Shown one piece after another: positions 47,977-61,500 of a stretch of 64,000 bases of DNA (within the stretch, counting starts at the first letter, position 1; the number at the start of each line of letters is the position of its first letter). The stretch comes from Hyphomicrobiales bacterium. GTDB lineage: Bacteria; Pseudomonadota; Alphaproteobacteria; Rhizobiales; Rhizobiaceae. The position numbers and the translations under genes are program-made. Below the pieces are notes generated by a model. The model saw nothing but the letters and a program-made list of their open reading frames with translations. It was not told where the DNA came from and ran no database searches. The stretch covers positions 72,190 through 136,189 of the forward strand of contig UCKM01000005.1 of the NCBI GenBank assembly GCA_900473175.1. The letters run 5' to 3'.

Positions 47977-48867
47977 TTAAATGCGATCTGAAAACCGATC
48001 ATAGGCATCGATCCGCCGGATCGGTGGATCTGCCTCATACCGATAGATCTCCGTTCTCAAGAACCGCAGCTCGGCCTCGCGTTGAGCTTCGGGAACGTCG
48101 ATATACCAAGCGCGCGGCTCCGGGCCGGGATCGCCGTTCCAGCGGTATCCCCGCGCCTTGAGAACATCCTTGAGGTCGAAGGGCGAGTTCTCCGCCCAGA
48201 TTCGCCAGGCGACAGTACGAGCGCCATCCAGAAGGCGACTAAGGCCCGTAACGCCAGATCGGGGCAGCCGCATCGCCAACAGCTCGATCGTTGCAAGACA
48301 GTCGTGCGTCGCGCGGTGGCGATCATAGAAGAAGCCGGCCGCCTGAGCGAGATAGGCGAGCTTCGCCCCCTCGAATCCTTCCGCCGCCCAGTCAACCTGG
48401 CTGAACGAGCAGGCCCAGGGCTTCGTCGAGAACACGTCGCTGAAGCGTTCGAGGAAGCGGCGATCGAACGCCGCGTTGTGTGCGATGATGAGCGAGGCCG
48501 GCGCCGCGAATTTGGCAACCTCGGCAGGATCGATGACCTGGCCGGCCACCATTTCATTCGTGATGCCGGTGATCGCCGTGATTTCCGGCGCGATCGGCTC
48601 GCTCGGCTGACGCAGCCCTTGGAAGCTGTCGCCCACGCTGAAAACGGTGCCATCGAGGCTGTAGTTGAATGGCGTCATGGCGAGTTCGATGATCTCGTCG
48701 CGCTGAGGATCGAGTCCCGTGGTCTCCACATCGACCACCAGGCCAAGGCGCAGCTGCATGCCGGGAGGCGGAATGGTGCGAGGGCGCGGCTTAAGACGCC
48801 GAATGACCCGGTAATCTCCCGTAGCCTCCAGTGTTTGCGCCAGGGTCTCCAGATTGTCAGAAGTCAT
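47977..48867 (-). CDS. DEDDh 3'-5' exonuclease (DnaQ/RNase T-like)
   Basis: The 296-residue protein has the exonuclease motifs: GLVVDVETTGLDPQRDEIIE (ExoI, DxE), LIIAHNAAFDRRFLERF (ExoII) and YDRHRATHDCLATIEL (ExoIII, HxxxxD). The C-terminal 90 residues (NSPFDLKDVLKARGYRWNGD; RAWYIDVPEAQREAELRFLR) look like a separate nucleic-acid or partner-binding module. It is the last gene of the minus-strand defence cluster. Its ATG lies 11 bp inside the herA reading frame, so it is translated with HerA and may be part of the SIR2-HerA system (inference). Confidence 0.85.
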   Translation of the reverse strand: MTSDNLETLAQTLEATGDYRVIRRLKPRPRTIPPPGMQLRLGLVVDVETTGLDPQRDEIIELAMTPFNYSLDGTVFSVGDSFQGLRQPSEPIAPEITAITGITNEMVAGQVIDPAEVAKFAAPASLIIAHNAAFDRRFLERFSDVFSTKPWACSFSQVDWAAEGFEGAKLAYLAQAAGFFYDRHRATHDCLATIELLAMRLPRSGVTGLSRLLDGARTVAWRIWAENSPFDLKDVLKARGYRWNGDPGPEPRAWYIDVPEAQREAELRFLRTEIYRYEADPPIRRIDAYDRFSDRI

Positions 48868-50902
48868 CGTCCGCCGCTTCGTTTACCGCCATCGGCTCCC
48901 CTTCATCCGCCGCAGCAGCGGCCTCGGCCGGGCGGAGCGCGAGGCGAATGTCAGCGGCTCGACCTTCCTCGTGGAACCACAAATCGACCACGGCGGTATC
49001 GTCGCTGCGCGGCCGCGGTGATGCCTCCCGCACTTTGAATGTCGTCGGGAGATTGACCGAGGTTCCGAACACCAGCGCGTGCTGCCGAGGCAATGATGGC
49101 AACCGTTTCAGGACCGATTCTGAAATGAACGGTGTCATCTGACGAATTTGGGAGAGATCGTCGGGATTCTGGATACGGTGAACCAGAAAGTTGGAGCACT
49201 GGCTGAGAACCGTCTTTGACAGCTCGCTCGGGCGCTGGGAGGCCAAGAGCACGAACATGCCGTACTTGCGCCCTTCCTTTGCGATGCGCTCGAATATCTT
49301 TGTGGCGTCGATGGAAAAGCGGGATGGCGTAGAGGCGACATACCTGTGGGCCTCTTCGAGCAGCAGGTGTATCGGGAAGCGGTTTCTTGGTTCCGCATGG
49401 CGAAGGAACCGAAAAAGCATGCGTGCGATGACCGCACTGACCAGTTCAACGATTTCGTCTTCGACAGAATTCAGGTCAATAATAATGACCTGATTGCGTT
49501 TGGTGAACGCTTCACCAGCAGCCCTTTCCAGACCGACAATGTTGGTCATGAACTCCAGATCGCTTACAGCCGCGCCAACGTCGGGGCCTTCGTGACGCAG
49601 AAAGGCATATTCCGTCCGCTCCTGGAGAGATCTGAGCCGAGTGACCATGGACGAGCAGTAGTCTCGGATTTGGCGGTTGCCGTGAGCCTCCTCATAGAGA
49701 ATCGCGAAGTCGAGACACTCGTGCAGCTCATCAAAAGAAAATGGCGTCCGACTGTAGGCTGGTAAGGGTGCATCCTCCCGGAGCTTCTTCCTCACTTCGT
49801 CCAGAAACGCCGATTGGTTGTTCCCCGAAAAATTTCCGTACTGAAAATTCGGATTAAAGCGGTTCAGCAGCGCCATATTCAGATCGTTCGTCGGATATTT
49901 CTGAAGAAGAGAAACGACGCGCTGAAATTTCGACACTGGGGAGTCACCATCTGCACCTCGAAAGCACTCGATGATGCAAGTGGCGACAAAGTGCTCGCGC
50001 AACGCCAGGGCGTCTGGCGTGTTGGCGTGGAGGAGACTTGTCAGACCCAACGCCGTCCGAAGGACAGGCAGTTGCGTTCGCTCGCTGGCCTGCAAAAGCA
50101 GTTCCCATTCTGCCATTTCCAGGAACCAGTGCGGCATCCGAAAGCCGGCTGTCGTCCCATCAAGGATTACGCGATGGACGCCGATGCCGCCGTCTTTTGC
50201 CAAAGGCGCAAGCGCTTCGTGATACTCGCCGTTCACGTCGAAGACGATAAACGTCGCGCCGCGGGCGTGATGTTCGTCCGGCTTGTCGAAAAGAGACTGC
50301 AAGACCGACGCAACCGTGCATGACTTCCCGCTGCCGGTGTTACCCAGGACGGCAACGTGGCCACCGAAGAACTCGTTCAGACGGACTTTGACGTCATAGT
50401 CCTCGAACACCACCGACTTGCCGATGGGCAGAACCCGATAGCGCGTGGCCCCCTCGGGTTGGCAGGCGCCGCCATCCGGGCCGACTGACGGCTCAACGGC
50501 AGCATCTGTCTCGAAGATGCGGTCGAGCTCGCCGTCCAACGCATAGAGGGCGTCCGCATAGAGGGACGGGAAAACGGACACGCCGAAACGGAACGCGCCG
50601 CCACGCATCGGCAGCATGCCGACAGGCACCACATCCAGATATTTGGAAGAACCGGCCCGGTCGAAATCACCCCGCTCGGACGGCGTGCTTGCATCGCGTT
50701 CACGCAGGCCAACAACCTCGACCACGACATATTCCGACTGCGCCGGGATCATCAAAAATGACCCCAGCCGCGCCACATAATGCACGTCATCGAAGCCGAC
50801 GACCGTGAAGTTGTCGGTGCCGGCGTGCATCTCGACGACGAAGCGGTCGGCCGCGACCGAGACCACCTTGCCGATCGCGCGCTTGCGATCGTCGTGGCTC
50901 AT
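48857..50902 (-). CDS. herA: HerA-like hexameric ATPase, defence-associated
   Basis: The 681-residue protein has an N-terminal HAS-barrel (about 1-100), then the HerA/FtsK-type ATPase. Walker A is GNTGSGKSCT and Walker B FPIHLLLEEAHRYV, with the sensor segment LLASQRPSELSKTVLSQCS and an Arg-finger-like region VHRIQNPDDLSQIR. HerA rings translocate DNA and partner with nucleases or SIR2 proteins in anti-phage systems. The 4-bp overlap with the SIR2 gene indicates a fixed protein pair. Confidence 0.9.
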   Translation of the reverse strand: MSHDDRKRAIGKVVSVAADRFVVEMHAGTDNFTVVGFDDVHYVARLGSFLMIPAQSEYVVVEVVGLRERDASTPSERGDFDRAGSSKYLDVVPVGMLPMRGGAFRFGVSVFPSLYADALYALDGELDRIFETDAAVEPSVGPDGGACQPEGATRYRVLPIGKSVVFEDYDVKVRLNEFFGGHVAVLGNTGSGKSCTVASVLQSLFDKPDEHHARGATFIVFDVNGEYHEALAPLAKDGGIGVHRVILDGTTAGFRMPHWFLEMAEWELLLQASERTQLPVLRTALGLTSLLHANTPDALALREHFVATCIIECFRGADGDSPVSKFQRVVSLLQKYPTNDLNMALLNRFNPNFQYGNFSGNNQSAFLDEVRKKLREDAPLPAYSRTPFSFDELHECLDFAILYEEAHGNRQIRDYCSSMVTRLRSLQERTEYAFLRHEGPDVGAAVSDLEFMTNIVGLERAAGEAFTKRNQVIIIDLNSVEDEIVELVSAVIARMLFRFLRHAEPRNRFPIHLLLEEAHRYVASTPSRFSIDATKIFERIAKEGRKYGMFVLLASQRPSELSKTVLSQCSNFLVHRIQNPDDLSQIRQMTPFISESVLKRLPSLPRQHALVFGTSVNLPTTFKVREASPRPRSDDTAVVDLWFHEEGRAADIRLALRPAEAAAAADEGEPMAVNEAADDDF

Positions 50903-52221
50903 GCCCCGTCATCCTTCTTCTCGTCATCCCTGTTCGGGGCCAGATCGGATAACACCTTGCGAACGGCCTCATCGATCCTGTCGCTGGGGCGCTGTGGCAT
51001 GAAGTGCTCGACGATCATGTCGAAGTAGTGCGCCCTGCTTCCCTCAGCAGGGCCGTCACCTCCAATGATCCAAATGCGCGGATCGCGCAGCGCTCGCAGC
51101 TTGGCGATCTCTCCGGCGGTATCCGGCGACGCGAAGACCACCAGACGGAAAGTCGGAATCGTTAGCGCCTGGTAGATGATGTTATTCAGGTGCTCATCGC
51201 CGAATGCGTAGCCGGCTGTGATGAGAACGCTCTGCTCTCGCACGATCCGGGACTGAAATTCCCGGAACAGGTCGGCATAGGGCGAGCCAAGCGAAGAGTT
51301 CTGCTTCGCCGGCGTCGGATAGATCAGCATCTGGTTCGTGGACTCTGGCGGCCAGACTTCCTTGATCGGGAACAGCCCATGATCGTCCTCGGTCCAAGTG
51401 ACCGAACCATGCAATTTGCAGAGATAGACGAAGGCGTCGACAGCGGTCCATTTGCGGCTGGCAACGTCGAGCTGCTCGGCCAGGGCATAGCGGAAGATCG
51501 CCGGGTTGAAGCGGCGTTCAACCACGCCGGAAAAGCCGTTGGCATATGGAATGCCCAAGCGATCCATCGCCAATTCGTTGAAATGATCGTAGTTGGTCGT
51601 GAACACCCACGGCCGGGGCAAGGACCGATCTCTCAGGACTAGCTTCTTGTAAAACCGCTCATAGAGATCGCGCACCGTGGTGTCGCCCTCCGTGGCGAAG
51701 GCCCCTTGGGTGACACGGATCCACAGGAAATCCTGAACCTTCTTGATGATACCATCGAGAATATCGCGGTAGGGGTGAAGATCAGGATTCTTGCTCTGAC
51801 GCAGCACGAACCGCTGCGCAAATAACACCTCCATCAAGCGTTCCAGGTTACGGCTGTAATCCTTCGCTAGGTCGATCCCGAGCGCATCAAGATAGTCGAG
51901 CTCCACCTTGGTCAGCCGCCATGGTGCCGGTGCAGCGCCGGCTACCGGCGGATCAGCGTAGAATCCTGCCGCGCGCGCCTCGAGGGTTTCCCCGCAAAAC
52001 TCCTTGGCCAAGGGCTCCATGGTTGCAATGCCGAGTTCATTTTTGTCCCTCATCAGAGAGGAACATCCGGCGCCGAGCAAAAACGCGATATTCTTGGCGT
52101 TCATGGCCTCGGAAATCGCCTGGCGGGCGCTCTCGATCCCCTTGCTCCAGTCAAGTTCCGATGGATCGGCATCGCCGTTCCGTAGAAACTGGAATTTTCG
52201 CTCCTCTGCGACTTGGCTCAT
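50899..52221 (-). CDS. SIR2-family (SIR2_2) NADase, partner of HerA
   Basis: The 440-residue SIR2-like protein has the NAD-binding loop IAFLLGAGCSSLM, the catalytic-Asn region WVFTTNYDHFNELAMD and the His motif YLCKLHGSVTW. The C-terminal fold ends with LITAGYAFGDEHLNNIIYQA. In SIR2-HerA systems the SIR2 partner depletes NAD when phage infects, killing or stalling the cell. HerA follows by overlap, and AbiEii precedes it by only 22 bp. Confidence 0.9.
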   Translation of the reverse strand: MSQVAEERKFQFLRNGDADPSELDWSKGIESARQAISEAMNAKNIAFLLGAGCSSLMRDKNELGIATMEPLAKEFCGETLEARAAGFYADPPVAGAAPAPWRLTKVELDYLDALGIDLAKDYSRNLERLMEVLFAQRFVLRQSKNPDLHPYRDILDGIIKKVQDFLWIRVTQGAFATEGDTTVRDLYERFYKKLVLRDRSLPRPWVFTTNYDHFNELAMDRLGIPYANGFSGVVERRFNPAIFRYALAEQLDVASRKWTAVDAFVYLCKLHGSVTWTEDDHGLFPIKEVWPPESTNQMLIYPTPAKQNSSLGSPYADLFREFQSRIVREQSVLITAGYAFGDEHLNNIIYQALTIPTFRLVVFASPDTAGEIAKLRALRDPRIWIIGGDGPAEGSRAHYFDMIVEHFMPQRPSDRIDEAVRKVLSDLAPNRDDEKKDDGA

Positions 52222-52243
52222 ATCCCCCCGATCCCCCAGCTTC

Positions 52244-53260
52244 CTATTTGGCTGCGCTGTTCGCGCGCGCGGCTATATCGGCGCATCGCGCCATGAGCGC
52301 CTCGAACGGCTCGGCGTCGTCGAAGAGCAGCCCATCCTCGACCATGCGGGCATAGTCGTCCTTTAGCGCCTTCGTGCCATCGCCGACCGGCACGAGCTGT
52401 AAGCCGCCGCTGACGGCCGCTGCATAGTCGATCGGCGTGCGGTCGGCGGCTTTCTCTGCGAAGAACATCGACTTGTGCCGGGAGACGGCGTTGGCCAGTT
52501 CGCGATCAGCGAAAGCTCCTTCCGCGAAGCCGGCTTCATCCAGCCGGACAACATCGTGCCAGTGGCGCGCAAAGCGGTCGCCGCGCAGCCGCTCCTGGAG
52601 GCAGAAGACATGGATAGCGGTCGCCTTCTCCCAGAAGGTCCGCTCCGCGTGCATGACACGCGGCCGCGCCGTCGGGAGTACCAGTCCGTCGATCAGGCCG
52701 GCGGCGTCACAGGAGACATCGCGCAGGCTCGCCGGTTCGCCCGTCGAGCGGGCGCCGAACTCCAGCATGACGCTGGGCGCGACATAGCCGGACCCGGCTG
52801 CGGTCGCCTCATAGTCGATGAAGAGCTTGTCATCCTCGACGCGGATGGCCGCCGCCAGACCTTCGGCGGCCAGTGAGTTCGCGATCACGGGCCGCACGGT
52901 TTCCGCGACCCATGCCGGCAACCGCCGACGGACCTCGCTCGACCAGCGTTTTTCCTCGCTTCGGGTTTTCGGCAACCCCTCGCCATTGTCCCCGACCAGA
53001 TCGGGCGCAATCGCACGAATGTCATAGGTCAGATCCACGTCCTCCGAAAACCTGCGGATGACGTGATAGGCCTTCGACAGCGACGTGCCGCCCTTGAACA
53101 CCAGGTGCTCGCCGAGCGGCGCGGCGTATAGGGTCGCAAGCGCCCACACTACCCACACATCCTTTTCGAGAAGATGGGTGGGACGGCCCGAGCGGTCGGC
53201 CGCGACACCCAGCGCGTCGCGCCGGTCCTCGGCCGAAAGCTGGAGAAAGACGTCAGCCAT
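52244..53260 (-). CDS. AbiEii-like nucleotidyltransferase toxin
   Basis: The 338-residue protein has the AbiEii/MenT signature FKGGTSLSKAYHVIRRFSEDVDLTYD (nucleotide-binding GG-S plus DxD) within residues 60-90, and the later Lys-containing WEKATAIHVFCLQE. The toxin blocks growth by modifying tRNA or another target with nucleotides. It is the second gene of the AbiE pair, overlapping the antitoxin by 8 bp. Confidence 0.88.
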   Translation of the reverse strand: MADVFLQLSAEDRRDALGVAADRSGRPTHLLEKDVWVVWALATLYAAPLGEHLVFKGGTSLSKAYHVIRRFSEDVDLTYDIRAIAPDLVGDNGEGLPKTRSEEKRWSSEVRRRLPAWVAETVRPVIANSLAAEGLAAAIRVEDDKLFIDYEATAAGSGYVAPSVMLEFGARSTGEPASLRDVSCDAAGLIDGLVLPTARPRVMHAERTFWEKATAIHVFCLQERLRGDRFARHWHDVVRLDEAGFAEGAFADRELANAVSRHKSMFFAEKAADRTPIDYAAAVSGGLQLVPVGDGTKALKDDYARMVEDGLLFDDAEPFEALMARCADIAARANSAAK

Positions 53261-53846
53261 ACGCCGCCTTTCCGACGCTCTGGGCGAGCCATGTCGGAAG
53301 CTGCGGCGCGGCGGCGACCAGTTCGCCGAACACGCCGGGCGGCATCTTGCGCTTCAACGTCTTGAGCGCCGTTTCTGCTTTCTCTGGGCCGAGCCACGCC
53401 AGCGCTCGCACGACCTCCCCTGCCGGCCGGTTAGCCAGCGCCAATTGCCAGCGCGGCGCGTGCCGCAATTCCACGACCTGCTTGCCAAGGTGCATCTTTC
53501 GGCTGCGCCCGGAGGTCAGATAGACCGAACGGACAGGCACCTGCGTCGTCAAGCCAAGGGCGTTCGCTGCGGCGGCGCCGTTCGAGACGATGATCTCTCC
53601 CTTTTGGGTTGCAAGGGCCTCGACGGCCTGCTCGACCGAAGGCGTGCGCGTGCCGAACCGGCTGGCGATGGGGCGCAGATAGACGCCGCGACCGGCGCGG
53701 ATGAGCTGCCCGCGCTCCGTCAGGCGCGACAACGCCTGATCCACCGCAGCTCGATTTCCAAGGTGGAGTAATCCTTTGGCGGACACAGGTGCGCCTTCGG
53801 GCAAGCCCGTCGCATGCGACAGAATCTGTTCGGTCAGCCGTGTCAT
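53253..53846 (-). CDS. AbiEi-like antitoxin (DUF6088, winged-helix)
   Basis: The 197-residue protein has an N-terminal winged helix (SAKGLLHLGNRAAVDQALSR, then LTERGQLIRAGRGVYLRPI) and the AbiEi C-terminal region (RSVYLTSGRSRKMHLGKQVV, VVELRHAPRWQLAL). It should neutralise the AbiEii toxin and repress the operon. It is the first gene of the five-gene minus-strand cluster. Confidence 0.85.
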   Translation of the reverse strand: MTRLTEQILSHATGLPEGAPVSAKGLLHLGNRAAVDQALSRLTERGQLIRAGRGVYLRPIASRFGTRTPSVEQAVEALATQKGEIIVSNGAAAANALGLTTQVPVRSVYLTSGRSRKMHLGKQVVELRHAPRWQLALANRPAGEVVRALAWLGPEKAETALKTLKRKMPPGVFGELVAAAPQLPTWLAQSVGKAAYG

Positions 53847-53893: not shown

Positions 53894-53969
53894 GGAAACC
53901 CGTGAGAACAGGCCTGATAAGGGGGAAAGCCTTCCCCTGCGGCCGAGCCAGGGTCTCTGCCGACCCCTT

Positions 53970-53989
53970 CTGCGGGGAGATCCCCGCAG
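53970..53989. repeat. Strong hairpin between defence and maintenance modules
   Basis: Perfect 9-bp arms CTGCGGGGA and TCCCCGCAG flank a GA loop. No T-run follows. It lies just before leader RNA copy A and may insulate the two modules. Confidence 0.45.
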
Positions 53990-53996
53990 CGCCCCA

Positions 53997-54079
53997 TTAG
54001 AGTGAGAGTGCGGACGGGTTTCCCGTGACGGGTTGAGGGCTGGAGAAGAGGTTTCCGGCGCCCGTCGCGGAGAACCGCG
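53997..54079 (+). promoter_or_regulatory. Conserved leader RNA, copy A (before ardC-like gene)
   Basis: The consensus start is TTAGAGTGAGAG. Helix 1 is GACGGG (54027-54032) with CCCGTC (54061-54066). The conserved TTGAG bulge is at 54033-54037, and helix 2 is GCTGGA (54039-54044) with TCCGGC (54054-54059). An extra hairpin ACGGG-TTT-CCCGT lies at 54014-54026. The ATG follows helix 1 by 13 nt. Confidence 0.65.
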
Positions 54080-55042
54080 ATGTTCAGGAAAAGTCACAAC
54101 GCACGCGCCGGCTCCTGCCGGGCGAGCATCTACGACGACATCACCGGCAAGATCATCGTCGAGCTGCAAGCTGGCCGTGCGCCCTGGGTCCAGCCATGGG
54201 GTTCGGCCGCAGCCAAGGCGCCGCTCGCTATGCCGCGGAACGCCGCAACCGGACGGCACTATTCAGGCATCAACGTGCTGATCCTGTGGGGCGCCGTGAT
54301 ACAGCACGGTTTTCCCGGCCAGAGCTGGCTCACCTTTCGCCAGGCGCTGTCGCTGGGCGGCAATGTCCGCAAGGGCGAGCATGGCACGACCGTCGTCTAT
54401 GCGGATCGCTTCACGCCGGAAGACGAGAAGCGCCGCGCCCGCGAGACCGGCGAGGACGCCGCCGCGATTCCGTTCCTCAAGCGCTTCACCGTCTTCAATG
54501 CCGCGCAATGCGACGGCCTGCCGGAGGACATCACGGCCGTCGCTCCACCCCCTCCGCCCGGCCTCATCGAGCCGCGCGTCGAGACCCTGATCCAGGCAAC
54601 CGGCATCGACTTCCGCATCGGCGGCGGCCGCGCCTTCTATGTGCCGGCACACGACTATGTGCAGGTGCCGCCGCCGCAGGCCTATTTCGAGCCGATCAAC
54701 TGGCACCGCACGGCCCTGCACGAACTGGGGCACGCCACCGGCCATACCTCCCGGCTCGGCCGTGACCTGACCGGCGGTTTCGGGACCAGGAAATACGCCT
54801 TCGAGGAGCTGGTGGCCGAGATCAACGCGGCCTTCTGCTGCGCATCGCTCGGCATCGCGCCCACCGTTCGTCACGCCGACTATATCGGCTCCTGGCTGGA
54901 GGTGCTGCGCGAAGACAATCGCGCCATCGTTCGCGCCGCCTCCCAGGCGAGCAAGGCGGCCGATTGGCTGCTCGGCTTCCTGCCGGACGCCGATCTCGGC
55001 TCCGACCTCGGTTCGGCCGACGACGAACGGCAGGCGGCATGA
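54080..55042 (+). CDS. ArdC-like antirestriction protein with zincin motif
   Basis: The 320-residue protein has an N-terminal ArdC ssDNA-binding domain (YDDITGKIIVELQAGRAPWV; ATGRHYSGINVLILW; GGNVRKGEHGTTVVYADRF) and a C-terminal zincin-like domain with HExxH (TALHELGHATGH). ArdC proteins protect incoming DNA from restriction during conjugation. It heads the maintenance module behind leader copy A. Confidence 0.9.
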   Translation: MFRKSHNARAGSCRASIYDDITGKIIVELQAGRAPWVQPWGSAAAKAPLAMPRNAATGRHYSGINVLILWGAVIQHGFPGQSWLTFRQALSLGGNVRKGEHGTTVVYADRFTPEDEKRRARETGEDAAAIPFLKRFTVFNAAQCDGLPEDITAVAPPPPPGLIEPRVETLIQATGIDFRIGGGRAFYVPAHDYVQVPPPQAYFEPINWHRTALHELGHATGHTSRLGRDLTGGFGTRKYAFEELVAEINAAFCCASLGIAPTVRHADYIGSWLEVLREDNRAIVRAASQASKAADWLLGFLPDADLGSDLGSADDERQAA

Positions 55043-55117
55043 TCAACCTGAAAACCGGAAAGGCGGGGAAGCGGGTTTCCGGCTTCACGTCTTTCCGCTT
55101 CCGTGGCGCTGCCCTCC

Positions 55118-55199
55118 TTAGTGAGAGGGCGGCGCTTCGCTTCGTGACGGGTTGGAGGTCGAGAGAGAGGCTCTCGGCGCCCGTCGCGGAGTAAAGTCC
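55118..55199 (+). promoter_or_regulatory. Conserved leader RNA, copy B (before parB-like gene)
   Basis: It starts TTAGTGAGAGGG. Helix 1 is GACGGG (55146-55151) with CCCGTC (55180-55185), the bulge is TTGGAG, and helix 2 is GTCGAGAG (55158-55165) with CTCTCGGC (55171-55178). Helix 2 has changed on both strands relative to copy A while staying paired. The start codon follows helix 1 by 14 nt. Confidence 0.65.
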
Positions 55200-57326
55200 A
55201 TGGCAACTGCCGTTCAGAAGATCACCCTGTCGTCGGCGCGCGACATCCCCTTCAACAAGCTGGTGCTGAGCCAGTCCAACGTCCGCCGCGTCAAGGCCGG
55301 CGTCTCGATTGAGCAAATGGCCGAGTCCATCACCCGGCACGGCCTCATCCAGAGCCTGCATGTCCGCCCGGTCCTCGACGGCGATGGCAATGAGACCGGC
55401 ATGTTCGAGGTGCCCGCCGGCGGCCGCCGCTATCGCGCGCTCGAATTGCTGGTGAAGCAGAAGCGCCTGGTCAGGAACGCTCCGGTCCCTTGCGTCATCG
55501 GCGACGCCAACAGCGACATCCTGATCGACGAGGTGTCGCTGGTCGAGAACATGGAACGTGCGCCGCTCCATCCGCTCGACCAGTTCCGCGCCTTCCAGGC
55601 CATGCGTAACAAGGGCATGACCGAGGAGGCCATCGCCGCCGCCTTCTTCGTCAGCGTCACCGTGGTGAAGCAGCGCTTGCGCCTCACCTCCGTCTCACCG
55701 ACCCTGCTCGATATCTATGCCGAAGACGGCATGACGCTCGAACAGCTCATGGCCTTCACCGTCAGCCCCGACCATGCCCGTCAGGAGCAGGTCTGGGACG
55801 CGATCAAGGATAGCTGGCAGAAGGAGCCCTACCAGATCCGGCGGATGCTGACCGAGACTGCGGTTCGCGCCTCGGACAAACGGGCCGTCTTCGTCGGTGT
55901 CGACGCTTACGAGGCCGCGGGCGGCATCATGCTGCGCGATCTGTTCCAGTCCGACGACGGCGGCTGGCTGCAAGACCCGGCCCTGCTCGACCGCATGGTG
56001 GAAGAGAAGCTGAAAACCGCCGCCGATCAGGTGGCCGAGGAAGGATGGAGGTGGATCGAGGTCGCGGTGAGCTTCCCCTATGGCCACGACCATGGTCTGC
56101 GTGAACTCTCCGGCACCACGGTCGATCTGACCGAAGAGGAACGCGCGACCCGCGAGGCGTTGCGCGAGGAATATGACCGGATCGAAGCGGAATATTCCGA
56201 AGCCGACGAACTGCCCGACGAGATCGATCAGCGCCTCGGTGAAATCGAGCAGGCCCTGGAAGCCTTCGAAAACCGCCCGGTCAGCTACGATCCGGCCGAC
56301 ATCGTAATCGCCGGCGCCTTCGTCAGCCTCGACGCCGACGGCTCGCTGTCGATCGACCGCGGCTATGTCCGTGCGGAGGACCAGACCCAGGCCGAGCCCA
56401 ATGGCGAGGAGACCGACGGCGACCAGCCCGATACGCCGGCCATCCAGCGTGCGGTCATCACCATCGGCGGCAAGCCTGCCGAACCCGAGGACGATGAGGA
56501 AGACGGCATCAAACCGTTGCCTGAGCGGCTTGTGATCGAGCTGACGGCCCATCGCACCCTGGCGCTGCGCAACGCGTTGGCGGAAAATCCGCACGTCGCC
56601 ATGACGATGTTGCTGCACAAGCTCGTCAGCGACACCTTCCGCCATACCGCGCCGACCGGCTGCCTCGAGGCCAATGTTCGCCACATCTTCTTCTCGGCCC
56701 AGTCCGAGGAATTGAAGGACAGCCTATCGGCGCAGGCGGTCAACGATCGCCACGAACGCTGGGGGGATCACATCCCCGCTGACGATCAGGCGCTCTGGGA
56801 CTGGCTGACCCATCTCGATGACGGTACGCGCATGGAGCTGCTGGCGCTTTGCGTCAGCTACGGCGTCAACGCGCTGTTCGAGCGTCCAACCCCCTATTCC
56901 GGCTCGGGCGTCAGTCAACACGGTCTCGACGTGCGCCTGGCACAGGCTGATCGGCTCGCGCGGGCGACCGGGATGGACATGGTGGCCGCAGGCTGGAAGC
57001 CCACGGTCGGCAACTATCTCGGCCGCGTGACCAAGCCCCGCATTCTCGAAGCCGTCCGTGAGGGAGCCGGCGACCGAGCCGCGCAACTCATCGACCACAT
57101 GAAGAAAGGCGACATGGCCAAGGAAGCCGAGCGCCTTCTGGCGGAAACCAACTGGCTACCCGAACCGCTGCGCCTGGCGTCCCTCGATGGCGATCAGCCC
57201 GGCGCGGACGATCAGGCCGATGTTGGCGAAGACACCACGTTGCCGGACTTCCTGACCGAGGACGGCGAGGACGAAGACACCGCCGATGACGAGGATGAGC
57301 TCCAGCACGCCGTCGCCGCTGAATAG
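55200..57326 (+). CDS. ParB/RepB/Spo0J-family protein, extended (708 aa)
   Basis: The N-terminal ParB nuclease-like domain (SQSNVRRVKAGVSIEQMAES, VPAGGRRYRALELL, VSLVENMERAPLHPLDQFRA) is followed by a KorB/HTH region (about 130-175; AAFFVSVTVVKQRLRLTSVS). The remaining 500 residues are much longer than chromosomal ParB, including an acidic coiled stretch (about 310-345) and a second helical domain (NALFERPTPYSGSGVSQHGL). Such long ParB-like proteins are common on alphaproteobacterial plasmids and ICEs and may have other roles besides partition; no parA is next to it. The ATG at 55200 follows leader copy B. Confidence 0.85.
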   Translation: MATAVQKITLSSARDIPFNKLVLSQSNVRRVKAGVSIEQMAESITRHGLIQSLHVRPVLDGDGNETGMFEVPAGGRRYRALELLVKQKRLVRNAPVPCVIGDANSDILIDEVSLVENMERAPLHPLDQFRAFQAMRNKGMTEEAIAAAFFVSVTVVKQRLRLTSVSPTLLDIYAEDGMTLEQLMAFTVSPDHARQEQVWDAIKDSWQKEPYQIRRMLTETAVRASDKRAVFVGVDAYEAAGGIMLRDLFQSDDGGWLQDPALLDRMVEEKLKTAADQVAEEGWRWIEVAVSFPYGHDHGLRELSGTTVDLTEEERATREALREEYDRIEAEYSEADELPDEIDQRLGEIEQALEAFENRPVSYDPADIVIAGAFVSLDADGSLSIDRGYVRAEDQTQAEPNGEETDGDQPDTPAIQRAVITIGGKPAEPEDDEEDGIKPLPERLVIELTAHRTLALRNALAENPHVAMTMLLHKLVSDTFRHTAPTGCLEANVRHIFFSAQSEELKDSLSAQAVNDRHERWGDHIPADDQALWDWLTHLDDGTRMELLALCVSYGVNALFERPTPYSGSGVSQHGLDVRLAQADRLARATGMDMVAAGWKPTVGNYLGRVTKPRILEAVREGAGDRAAQLIDHMKKGDMAKEAERLLAETNWLPEPLRLASLDGDQPGADDQADVGEDTTLPDFLTEDGEDEDTADDEDELQHAVAAE

Positions 57327-57334
57327 CGCGGGTC

Positions 57335-57362
57335 GCGCGGGGCGGCTCCGTTCGCCCCGCGC
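57335..57362 (+). terminator. Strong GC hairpin after parB-like gene
   Basis: Perfect 10-bp arms GCGCGGGGCG (57335-57344) and CGCCCCGCGC (57353-57362) start 9 bp after the parB-like stop. There is no T-run, so it may act as a transcript 3' end stabiliser or a factor-dependent terminator. Confidence 0.5.
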
Positions 57363-57384
57363 ATCCCACCCTAATCTTCCATCC

Positions 57385-57434
57385 GCCCGGTCCCGAGGTC
57401 GACAGTCTGCACGGCTGTGCCGTGCGGGCCGGGC
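57385..57434 (+). promoter_or_regulatory. Nested hairpin leader before the small-gene cluster
   Basis: GCCCGG (57385-57390) pairs with CCGGGC (57429-57434), enclosing a second hairpin GCACGG-CTGTG-CCGTGC (57409-57425). It is followed by ATTTTCATTT and the ribosome site of the next gene. It differs in sequence from leader copies A-C. Confidence 0.45.
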
Positions 57435-57456
57435 ATTTTCATTTCAGGAGCCTGTC

Positions 57457-57873
57457 ATGGCCGACTATTTCACCCACTTCTCGTGCCTGCTCGACGTCGG
57501 CACGCCCGGGAACGCCGCCCGCGCGCTCGACCTCTACAACCGCCTGTCCGACGTTGGCGCGTCGGAAGAACCACCCTCCGAGGGTTTCCTCCTCTCGATC
57601 CAGCCCGAACATGGCGGAACCCAGCTCTGGATGCGCGACGACATCACCGGCGATCCCGAGCGTCTGATCCAGTTCGTGAGGCACTGTGCCACGGAATTCG
57701 GTCTGACCGGCCGCTGGGGTTTCCAATATGCCAACACCTGCTCGAAGCCCCGGCTCGATGGCTTCGGCGGCGGCTCGCATGTCCTTGATCTCGCCACCGG
57801 CGAGACCGTGGACTGGATCTACACCGATGGCTGGCTCGCCGAGACCATCGCCGACGCAGGAGACCGGATATGA
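57457..57873 (+). CDS. Hypothetical protein, element small-gene cluster
   Basis: The 138-residue acidic protein starts MADYFTHFSCLLDVGTPGNA with AGGAG nine bases upstream. No family recognised. Visible features are a Trp/Gly-rich middle (GGTQLWMRDDITGDPERLIQ) and DGFGGGSHVLDLATGETVDW near the end. It is the first of three overlapping small genes. Confidence 0.7.
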   Translation: MADYFTHFSCLLDVGTPGNAARALDLYNRLSDVGASEEPPSEGFLLSIQPEHGGTQLWMRDDITGDPERLIQFVRHCATEFGLTGRWGFQYANTCSKPRLDGFGGGSHVLDLATGETVDWIYTDGWLAETIADAGDRI

Positions 57874-58136
57874 GCATCCCCTCCTTCGCCCGAACCAATT
57901 TCCAGACCCTGCTGCGCGCCGCCGGCGACGGCAACCTCGCACTCATGGAATGCCTCGACACCGCGACCGGTGCTCCGCGTTACGTCATCTGCGCGGTGGG
58001 ACGAGACGATGGCGATTTCATCTTCACACCCTTCGGCCATCTCGCCGACGGCAATCCTTATGACGCCTATCTGCCGCCCGATCCCGAAGACCCGAACGGC
58101 TTCGTACATCCCGATGCGCCGGGAGAGACGCCATGA
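57870..58136 (+). CDS. DUF6117-like small protein
   Basis: The 88-residue protein has the pattern FARTNFQTLLRAAGDGNLAL, MECLDTATGAPRYVICAVGR and FGHLADGNPYDAYLPPDPED, which I associate with the DUF6117 family found on alphaproteobacterial mobile elements; the assignment was not checked. The function is unknown. Its start and stop each overlap the neighbouring genes by 4 bp. Confidence 0.72.
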   Translation: MSIPSFARTNFQTLLRAAGDGNLALMECLDTATGAPRYVICAVGRDDGDFIFTPFGHLADGNPYDAYLPPDPEDPNGFVHPDAPGETP

Positions 58137-58429
58137 TGGACATCGACGCCATCTTCGCCGCCGATCACGAGCAGCCGCCCTGCGAACGGTCGCTCCCCTG
58201 GCCAGAGACCAGAGACGGCATCACCGTCATCATCGAGCCCAAACCGCATTGGGCCAGCGACATGCGGGCATTCCGGGCCGAGGTCCGTGAATATTGCGCC
58301 TATGCCGATTGGACCGCGAACGGTGCGCGCGCCAGATTCTTCGGGCACATCGACACGAGCGGCGATGACCTGATCCGCAAAGCGCGCATGCTCGTCAGCA
58401 GCGAGATCGTGGACGGATACTGGACCTGA
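58133..58429 (+). CDS. Hypothetical protein, element small-gene cluster
   Basis: The 98-residue protein starts MMDIDAIFAADHEQPPCERS and ends RKARMLVSSEIVDGYWT. No family recognised. It overlaps the upstream gene by 4 bp and is followed directly by a strong terminator, so these three small genes form one unit. Confidence 0.7.
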   Translation: MMDIDAIFAADHEQPPCERSLPWPETRDGITVIIEPKPHWASDMRAFRAEVREYCAYADWTANGARARFFGHIDTSGDDLIRKARMLVSSEIVDGYWT

Positions 58430-58436
58430 CACCTCA

Positions 58437-58469
58437 AAGCGCCCCGCCGCTCGGCCGGGGCGCTTTTTT
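58437..58469 (+). terminator. Rho-independent terminator of the small-gene cluster
   Basis: Arms AAGCGCCCCG (58437-58446) and CGGGGCGCTT (58456-58465) form a 10-bp stem followed by TTTTTT. Confidence 0.88.
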
Positions 58470-58493
58470 CGTGCCGGCAGCGAAGAGCGTTTC

Positions 58494-58588
58494 GAGAGTG
58501 AGAGGGCTGCCGGAACGGGTTGAGTCCGGGCGACCGAGAGAGAGCGCCGTTCGGACCTCCCGTTCCTGCTCTCCCGAGGTTCCAACCC
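58494..58588 (+). promoter_or_regulatory. Conserved leader RNA, copy C (before helicase gene)
   Basis: It starts GAGAGTGAGAGGG. Helix 1 is GGAACGGG (58512-58519) with CCCGTTCC (58559-58566), the conserved bulge is TTGAG (58520-58524), and helix 2 is TCCG (58525-58528) with CGGA (58552-58555). It is extended by GGCG (58529-58532) with CGCC (58545-58548), with a GAGAGAGAG loop. It lies after a terminator, so a promoter must be close. Confidence 0.65.
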
Positions 58589-61500
58589 ATGAACATCATG
58601 TCACCTGTCGCCGTTCCGGCCGCGCCCTTTGTCCGTGCATCCGCCATCATCATCGCCGCCCATCAGCTCCTCGCCCTGCTGGAACGCGGGCAGCGGATCG
58701 ACAGCGCCGGTCTCCGTGCCGCCATGGAGACCGCGTTCGCGGCTTCCGACGCGACCGGAGTCTGGGACTGGAAGGCGGCCTATGAAGCCTGCGAATGCGC
58801 GACCGTCCTGTTCCTGCGCAAATACGGACGTGCGCTTTTCCGTAAAGCCGGCACCCCGGCTGCACGGCTTTCCGCCTTGTCGAAAATCACCGGCCTCCTG
58901 CCGACGCACACCCGTCGCTCCGAGGAGAGTCAGGCGCTTCAGCAGTTCTCGACCCCGGTCCCGCTCGGTCTCCCAGCCATTACCGCCGCCGCGATCACGC
59001 CGCGCGACATCGTGCTGGAGCCTTCGGCCGGCACGGGCCTGCTCGCAATCCTCGCCGAGATCGGCGGCGGTTCGCTGCTCCTCAACGAGCTGGCGGAAAC
59101 CCGCGCCGATCTGCTCGCCGCGCTCTTTCCGGCCATAACCGTGACGCGCGTCGATGCTGCCCAGATCGACGATCATCTCGCAATGGGCGCTATTCCCTCT
59201 GTCATCCTTATGAATCCGCCATTCTCGGTGATGGCGAACGTCTCCGGCCGCGTGGCCGACGCCGCCTCTCGCCATATCGCCTCGGCGCTGGCGCGGCTCG
59301 CCCAGGGTGGGCGTTTGGTGACGATCACCGGCGCGAACTTCGGTCCCGAGCAGCCCGCATGGCGCGACGCCTTCGTGCGGCTTCAGGAGCGCGGCCGCGT
59401 CGTGTTCACTGCGGCGATCGACGGCTCGGTCTATGCCAGGCACGGCACGACCATCGAGACACGGCTCACCGTCATCGACAAGCTGCCCGCCGAAGATCCG
59501 GCCACGTTCCCGACATCCGCTGGTATCGCGCCCGACGTCGCCACGCTGCTCGGCTGGATCGAGGCCCGGGTCCCTCCGCGCCTGTCGGTTACTCTGCCCG
59601 AATCCGCGCCACCTCTGTTGGGCTCAGCGCCGCGCACCGTGCGCGGCTATCTCGCCCGCGCTACCACCGCACGTCCGGCTGCGCCGCCGTCCATCGACCC
59701 TGAGGGCGTTGAACTCGCCTATGACACCGTGGACTGGACGCCGCCCGAAGGCGCACACCTCACGGACGCGATCTATGAAGAATACGGATTGCAGTCGATC
59801 CGCATTCCCGGCTCTCAGGCGCATCCCACCAAGCTCGTGCAATCGGCGGCCATGGCGAGCATCGCGCCGCCCAAGCCCGCCTATCGGCCGATGCTGCCCG
59901 CGAACATCACCGATCTGCTGTCGGACGCCCAGCTCGAAACCGTCATCTATGCCGGCGAGGCCCACTCGGACTTTCTCGCCGGATCATGGACGGTCGATGC
60001 GACCTTCGATCTCGTCCAGGCCGCGCCGACCGACGCCGAGAATAGCGTGCGTTTCCGGCGTGGCTTCATGCTCGGCGACGGCACAGGAGCGGGCAAAGGC
60101 CGCCAGTCTGCCGGCATCATCCTCGACAACTGGCTGCGCGGTCGCCGTAAGGCTGTCTGGATCTCCAAATCCGACAAGCTGATCGAGGACGCGCAACGCG
60201 ACTGGTCCGCGCTCGGCATGGAGCGCCTGCTGGTCACGCCGCTGTCGCGCTTTGCCCAGGGCAAGCCGATCACGCTGTCGGAAGGCGTCCTATTTGCAAC
60301 CTATGCCACGCTGCGCTCCGACGACCGCGGGCAGAAGGTTTCGCGTGTCCGGCAGATCGTCGAATGGTTAGGCTCCGATTTCGACGGAGTGATCATTTTC
60401 GACGAGAGCCATGCCATGGCCAATGCCGCCGGCGGCAAGGGAGAACGCGGGGACGTTGCCGCTTCGCAGCAGGGACGCGCCGGCCTCCGGCTCCAGCACG
60501 CCCTGCCGAACGCGCGCGTCGTCTATGTCTCCGCCACCGGCGCGACCACCGTTCACAATCTCGCCTATGCCCAGCGGCTCGGCCTGTGGGGCGGCGAGGA
60601 CTTCCCCTTCGCCAACCGCGCCGAATTCGTCGAGGCGATCGAGGACGGCGGCGTTGCCGCCATGGAGGTGCTCGCCCGCGATCTGCGCGCGCTCGGCCTC
60701 TATACCTCCCGTTCGCTCTCCTATGATGGCGTCGAGTATGAGCTGATCGAGCACACTCTGACCGACGAGCAGCGCCGCATCTACGATGCCTATGCCAGCG
60801 CCTTCGCCGTCATCCACAATCATCTCGACGCCGCGATGCAGGCCGCCAACATCACTGGAAGCCCAGATAGCGGGGGAGCCACACTGAACCGGCAGGCAAA
60901 GTCCGCCGCCCGCTCGGCCTTCGAAAGCGCCAAGCAGCGATTCTTCGGCCATCTGCTCACGTCGATGAAGACACCCACTCTGATCCGTTCCATCGAACGT
61001 GACCTGGATGATGGCCACGCCGCCGTCGTGCAGATCGTCTCGACCGGCGAAGCGCTGATGGAACGCCGGCTGGCCGAGATCCCGACCGAGGAATGGAACG
61101 ACGTTCGCGTCGATATCACTCCGCGCGAATATGTTCTGGACTATCTGGCCCACTCCTTTCCGGTCCAGCTCTACGAGCCGTTCACGGATGGCGAAGGCAA
61201 TCTGTCCTCCCGTCCGGTCTATCGCGACGGCCAGCCCGTCGAAAGCCGCGAAGCTGTCGCACGCCGCGACGAACTGATCGAACGGCTCGCCTCCCTGCCA
61301 CCAGTCCCCGGCGCACTCGACCAGCTCGTGCAGCGCTTCGGCACGACACAAGTGGCAGAGGTGACGGGGCGCTCGCGGCGCATCGTCCGCAAGGGTGAAC
61401 GCCTCGCCGTGGAAAACCGGCCGCCATCGGCGAACCTCGCCGAAACCACCGCCTTCATGGACGACCTGAAACGCATCCTCGTGTTCAGTGAAGCGGGCGG

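Follow-up and report, generated by a model that had tools for sequence, protein, structure and literature searches.

A short structured leader stands before three genes in a 64,000-nucleotide stretch of contig UCKM01000005.1 (assembly GCA_900473175.1, Hyphomicrobiales bacterium, Rhizobiaceae), hereafter the window. The genes encode an ArdC-like protein, a ParB-like protein and a methyltransferase/Strawberry-notch-type helicase, and their leaders are called A, B and C. Comparison with related sequences makes it fairly likely that the leader is a cis-acting element in the mRNA, about 80 nucleotides (nt) long, which governs the translation of anti-defence and maintenance genes on conjugative elements and plasmids of Alphaproteobacteria. 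A preliminary description of the window had treated A, B and C as copies of one RNA; its coordinates and sequences for all three are exact. Leaders A and B are indeed copies of one element, here called type I, and C, although related, forms a subtype of its own with a longer inner arm, here called type II. The same description saw a cis-regulatory RNA that unrelated genes of the element have in common. This is strongly supported because of the flush position of the leaders, the Shine-Dalgarno sequence within a helix, covariation, a bias among wobble pairs and the finding of further unrelated genes behind the leader. Joint switching of the maintenance genes, the other half of that claim, is what we infer.

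Sequence comparison shows that type I consists of a purine box and, after a nearly fixed interval, a long hairpin with the Shine-Dalgarno sequence at the end of its outer helix. The loop (AGAG) and the first two bases (TT) of a one-sided 5-nt bulge are kept in sequence, and both helices covary. The structural evidence comes from 199 type I leaders with 145 distinct cores; leaders of RadC genes were left out of this set and of the wobble, accessibility, upstream-frame and Shine-Dalgarno counts. When the register is picked for best pairing, 10–12 pairs of the 12-pair outer helix form in 193 of the 199. Alignment A4 is confined to leaders with an inner length of 28 (74 of the 145 distinct leaders and leader B of the window, 75 in all). 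In it 95.5% of the cells are paired, nine pairs are changed on both sides and there are 109 double-changed cells, compared with 90.7%, 5.5 pairs and 29.1 cells in shuffled alignments, none of which (0/500) reached the observed value. With the register slid, pairing falls to 41–54% and the double-changed cells to 4–42. Four adjacent pairs of the inner helix alternate between G-C and A-U. Within one length class the loop begins with AGAG in 67 of 74 copies. Divergent copies hold the fold with other sequences, such as GGGGAAGA/TTTTCCCC (L126) and GGCGAGAG/CTCTCGCC (L134; L and G numbers are our labels for sequence sources and genomes). Among 17 distinct divergent copies folded singly, ten retain the 5-nt bulge and an unbroken inner stem of 8–9 base pairs (bp); the remainder show mismatches, a bulge of 4 nt or, in L175 and L167, a different fold.

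The preliminary description had reported that the inner helix differs between copies and yet stays paired. This is so for A (GCTGGAGA/TTTCCGGC) and B (GTCGAGAG/CTCTCGGC); three copies cannot prove covariation, and it is the relatives that do so. Two of its motifs were redrawn in the same way. The start, GTGAGAG, makes up the 3′ part of the purine box, approximately AGAG(T/G)(G/A)AGAGG, and the GTG is absent there in many relatives. As to the conserved TTGAG/TTGGAG bulge, its first bases TT are conserved (at least 90% in 75 aligned copies), but among the 74 copies of one length class no more than 38 have the whole TTGAG or TTGGA. Across 78 ParB leaders the conserved region starts at the purine box, about 27 nt before the TGAC of the helix, and extends over about 80 nt in all; upstream of the box the commonest base reaches a frequency of only 0.27–0.65.

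Wobble pairs indicate which strand is under constraint. In the best-pairing register the outer helices of the 145 distinct leaders contain 286 G-U and 14 A-C pairs, and in a fixed register those of 137 distinct leaders contain 272 and 11. The excess of G-U over A-C implies that RNA of the coding strand is conserved, rather than a DNA palindrome or a hairpin of the template strand. The Shine-Dalgarno sequence GGAG closes the outer helix in 143 of the 145 distinct leaders, and lies 7–9 nt from the ATG in 144. Its predicted probability of being unpaired has a median of 0.07, compared with 0.36 when the upstream part is shuffled, and falls below 0.2 in 98 of 145 leaders and in 67 of 435 shuffles. 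In type I, then, the Shine-Dalgarno sequence lies in a conserved helix at a fixed distance from the start codon and both helices are backed by compensatory change; in type II such backing was found for the inner stem only.

The type I family was delimited with a covariance model, R1, trained on 42 ParB leaders from which the window sequences were excluded, and searched against 93 sources, the window among them, amounting to 1.8 Mb. It recovered leader B (55123–55199, 97 bits, expectation value (E) 3.1e-24) and leader A (54004–54080, 59.5 bits, E 1.6e-13); leader C was not matched in this search. In the window's own genome the model finds A and B and nothing more. A loose pattern search of that genome returned A, B, C and five more rows, two of them overlapping, which we take as chance because the reversed pattern matches six times. 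Relatives of the ParB-like protein in species genomes gave 80 loci with 79 ParB starts, and the outer helix could be parsed in all 79. When plasmids were searched at the nucleotide level, the region returned 665 records, in eight of which a single place accounted for 80% or more of the query, and the 96-nt leader B alone returned 128.

In all, 211 type I leaders were assembled from 93 loci, with A, B and the window included. They precede genes for ParB (92), ArdC (52), DUF932 (30), a protein of 182 amino acids (24), RadC of the RadC/JAB type (12) and, in a single case, a protein that we call PAPS-reductase-like, Pfam giving no name. The count includes weak matches, namely one ArdC leader at E 4.2 (L050:7604) and RadC leaders up to E 1.2; removed from it were minus-strand echoes of true matches, a weak match without an open reading frame (L047:8511) and three weak matches beside the helicase gene. 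The start codon lies 0–2 nt past the R1 match, except at L063:12911, where the script chose a later frame, and at three weak matches near the helicase gene. L126 and L178 are the same place, and L169 lacks a start codon. One 54-member cluster of open reading frames is made up of 52 ArdC and two ParB, apparently linked through one double match: from position 8816 of L088 a frame of 969 amino acids behind an ArdC leader resembles relatives of ArdC as well as of ParB, as though the two genes had fused. The 182-amino-acid protein (L010:12905–13453 and 22 relatives) is encoded between the ParB and helicase genes behind its own type I leader, and no Pfam or NCBIfam family matches its L010 copy. In further genomes the leader precedes an AlpA-type regulator once, a 150-amino-acid protein of unknown function once, and unknown proteins of 120–128 amino acids twice, weakly (E 4e-4 and 0.008). 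Gene order is steady across loci: ArdC or DUF932, then ParB, sometimes the 182-amino-acid gene, then the helicase. The plain order ArdC-ParB-helicase occurs in 24 of the 93 loci and DUF932-ParB-helicase in 23.

A type I match was present in 21 of 289 genomes of a class-level sample, or 20 without L131, which lies in an ABC-transporter frame of genome G094 and was treated as a false positive. A relative of the ParB-like protein at E 1e-30 was found in 28 of the 289; in 16 of the sampled genomes, the window's included, the ParB match is below 1e-200, and the leader is also present in 15 of these 16. In a phylum-level sample, for which the number of genomes outside the class was not listed, 33 of 398 genomes match and all belong to the window's class, which the named relatives identify as Alphaproteobacteria. 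A collection of viral sequences gave one contig, with the leader before a DUF932-type gene. Copies close to the alphaproteobacterial ones also occur in sources named Enemella (L069) and Bacillus (L085), where assembly contamination is likely.

The three leaders of the window and their genes are listed in the table. Leader A consists of the purine box AGAGTGAGAG, the outer helix CCGTGACGGG/CCCGTCGCGG, a 5-nt bulge TTGAG and an inner 8-bp hairpin with an AGAGG loop, and its Shine-Dalgarno sequence GGAG lies within the 3′ strand. On folding, A (z −3.1, 2/200 as good) and B (z −3.4, 0/200) exceed their dinucleotide shuffles. Leader C contains the purine box GAGAGTGAGAGG, ACGGGTTGAG, an inner arm with a CGAGAGAGAG loop, CCCGTTCC, and a GCTCTC with the potential to pair to the purine box. 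The downstream genes had been described as unrelated, in keeping with the absence of any Pfam family common to the three. In the helicase gene the methyltransferase domain PF05175 was found below the cut-off only; relatives carry the annotation methyltransferase/helicase. Adjoining leader A on the minus strand (48857–53846) are a SIR2-HerA defence pair and AbiEi/AbiEii genes identified by PADLOC, and a similar defence block lies beside the leader of the Haematobacter plasmid L010.

Table. Leaders and leader-bearing genes of the window.
Feature	Positions	Strand	Remarks
Leader A, type I	53997..54079	+	Flush before ATG at 54080 of the ArdC-like gene
ArdC-like protein, 320 amino acids	54080..55042	+	Pfam PF08401 (ArdcN), PF18818 (zincin-like metallopeptidase)
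Leader B, type I	55118..55199	+	Flush before ATG at 55200 of the ParB-like gene
ParB-like protein, 708 amino acids	55200..57326	+	Pfam PF02195 (ParB_N) above cut-off, PF17762 (HTH_ParB) below
Leader C, type II	58494..58588	+	Flush before ATG at 58589 of the methyltransferase/helicase gene
Methyltransferase/Strawberry-notch-type helicase, 1439 amino acids	58589..62908	+	Pfam PF13872, PF13871 (AAA_34, Helicase_C_4)

By eye, a leader of the C type precedes 76 helicase genes, the window's included. Its layout is a purine box, a GGGACGGG-like arm, TTGAG-like bases, a longer inner arm with a GAGAGAG loop, and a GCTCTC that has the potential to pair to the box. When arms were exchanged among leaders, the inner stem preferred its own partner (0/5000 permutations as good). 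In a first parse the 3′ arm was wrongly placed in 13 of 53 leaders and the 5′ arm in two; a better parse covered 49 of the 53, and in it at least one unscorable pairing inflates the inner means, the difference still being about 2 kcal/mol. RNAalifold on a MAFFT alignment of the 53 leaders gave no consensus (−0.08 kcal/mol), probably through misalignment. We regard leader C as a cousin of type I whose fold is less certain.

Several observations weigh against a translational element common to all these genes. Leader C alone folds no better than its dinucleotide shuffles (z −0.6, 50/200 as good), the outer arm of type II gave no covariation in the same exchange (2212/5000 permutations as good, 822/5000 with the better parse), and its Shine-Dalgarno sequence lies just outside the outer arm, and so is not hidden within it. 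Within type I, the RadC leaders have low scores (E 5e-6 to 1.2) and no GAGAG loop, and for both reasons we rate their membership as probable only. The outermost two pairs of the outer helix, formed by the AG of GGAG, are present in 118 and 100 of 145 leaders. Accessibility of the start codon and of the spacer is not reduced relative to shuffles (0.44 and 0.42; 0.45 and 0.45), the Shine-Dalgarno sequence of leader A has an unpaired probability of 0.27, and the leaders of the 182-amino-acid gene average 0.45 (n = 16). The leaders are also kin, so that the shuffle counts are not probabilities, and much of the outer helix is invariant. Finally, the AlphaFold model of the ParB-like protein (mean predicted local distance difference test (pLDDT) 65, predicted template modelling score (pTM) 0.34) is too poor to judge RNA binding.

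In the mechanism that we propose, the hairpin would hide the Shine-Dalgarno sequence and keep initiation low, and one trans-acting factor might contact the bulge, the loop and the purine box. Such a factor, encoded by the element or by the host, would most likely be an RNA-binding protein, with a small RNA as another possibility, and would set the translation of every leader-bearing gene at once. It is probable that the elements coordinate translation of these genes. A simple antisense partner is disfavoured: the window contains no CTCTCTCT/TCTCTCTC or complement beyond leaders B and C, and the 19.9 kb that follow have neither CTCTCTCT nor GAGAGAGA. Early establishment in a new host would fit the genes concerned (ArdC, RadC, methyltransferase-helicase and ParB). 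A tentative extension, possible though with the chances clearly against it, is zygotic induction by an RNA switch: in the donor the factor would fix all leader-bearing mRNAs in a single translational state, and the element newly arrived in a recipient, being without the factor or acquiring it, would give a burst of translation of the antirestriction, ParB-like, RadC and methyltransferase-helicase proteins. If true, this would be an RNA-level counterpart of single-stranded DNA promoters. It is understood for only a few systems how a conjugative element, once in a new host, activates its antirestriction and establishment genes. One short RNA before several unrelated families offers a handle, by sequence search, on the regulon with its unknown proteins and on its regulator.

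Other explanations have been weighed against a translational element. The hairpin could cause cutting of the mRNA by an RNase and so tune stoichiometry within an operon by processing or stability. Long hairpins between genes of the same strand, and ParB leaders with no conserved promoter block, are compatible with this, but it leaves unexplained both the conserved loop and a helix-borne Shine-Dalgarno sequence at fixed spacing, and we think it unlikely. The chances appear somewhat poorer for a leader peptide, in which ribosomes on a short frame stopping at the TGA of the outer helix would open the hairpin. This TGA is present in the 5′ strand of 138 of 145 leaders, an in-frame ATG or GTG precedes it in 76 of the 138 (55%, compared with 34% in shuffles), and by eye A and B each have such a frame. 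The other 62 of 138 have no upstream start, so a conserved upstream frame was not found, and no Shine-Dalgarno sequence is seen before the GTG in A or B. The distance from purine box to helix, moreover, is 22 nt in 91 leaders, followed by 23, 21, 20 and 19; such single-base shifts break the frame.

Two explanations at the level of DNA seem very improbable. ParB-type proteins bind inverted-repeat sites, and the outer arms, which are inverted repeats, could form a double-stranded operator for the ParB-like protein or another regulator of the element; the leader's presence in nearly all genomes with a strong ParB match (15/16) would suit this. A palindrome, however, would give no bias of G-U over A-C, the inner arm varies in sequence while staying paired, and the position is locked to the start codon. 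There is similarly little to be expected of a single-stranded DNA promoter of the Frpo kind, in which a hairpin of the transferred strand would recruit RNA polymerase so that genes are expressed early in the recipient. Genes of the ArdC type are characteristic early genes, and Frpo hairpins sit upstream of leading-region genes (PMC11541004). Here, however, only 7–9 nt separate the hairpin from the start codon, too few for a transcribed Shine-Dalgarno sequence; the 78 ParB leaders have no conserved upstream block; and the fixed-register wobble count places the constraint on the coding strand, which disfavours a template-strand hairpin. No −35/−10 pair was recognized upstream of A, B and C, where the best hexamer pairs match 8, 7 and 8 of 12 positions in a linear scan of the unfolded strand.

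A second leader of another type, with the core CGCCATSRAGGCCGCRAYGGTCGCGG, was observed at L111:240–345 and L111:3480–3627, in the same genome just past the window. It lies about 26–33 nt before DUF2493 starts in many loci and before genes with a DUF736 start (MATIGT) in six. Its pattern has 55 matches in 49 loci, some by chance, and it has no Rfam match in five sources including L111.

The comparison with Rfam that the preliminary description had proposed gave no match to a leader. In Rfam 15 the whole window yields a single tRNA only; three matches in 53900–58700 (E 0.75–4.8) are far below gathering and none lies on a leader, and sources L111, L010, L012, L014 and L018 have no match. A literature search of titles and abstract openings, covering few subscription papers, found none describing the leader, which adds an RNA family not in Rfam 15. 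The family is of a known general kind, the cis-acting translational leaders; what is unusual is its use by a set of unrelated genes across the whole element. In phage coat-protein operators and ribosomal-protein leaders, a Shine-Dalgarno hairpin with a conserved bulge and loop is a common form of protein-read translational switch. Unlike those, the present element is copied before many unrelated genes, and its binding protein is only postulated. Frpo/ssi hairpins also lie upstream of anti-defence genes of conjugative elements; Frpo mimics a promoter in the transferred DNA (PMC11541004), whereas here the constraint is on coding-strand RNA and the ribosome-binding site is in the helix. There is a likeness in position to the establishment-gene regulatory sequences (EGeRS1) of the pLS20 plasmid family, in which no constitutive sigma-A promoter was found (PMC8708921). 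Both are structured blocks directly before the ribosome-binding site of ardC and other element genes, and EGeRS1 is a precedent for one conserved leader serving establishment genes (PMC8708921). By description, rather than by sequence, the two differ: EGeRS1 are 420–750 bp long with several branches, belong to Bacillus plasmids and are reported to stop upstream read-through (PMC8708921), whereas the present alphaproteobacterial leaders, about 80 nt in the ParB set and not a multi-branched region of 400–750 bp, form a single hairpin with the Shine-Dalgarno sequence.

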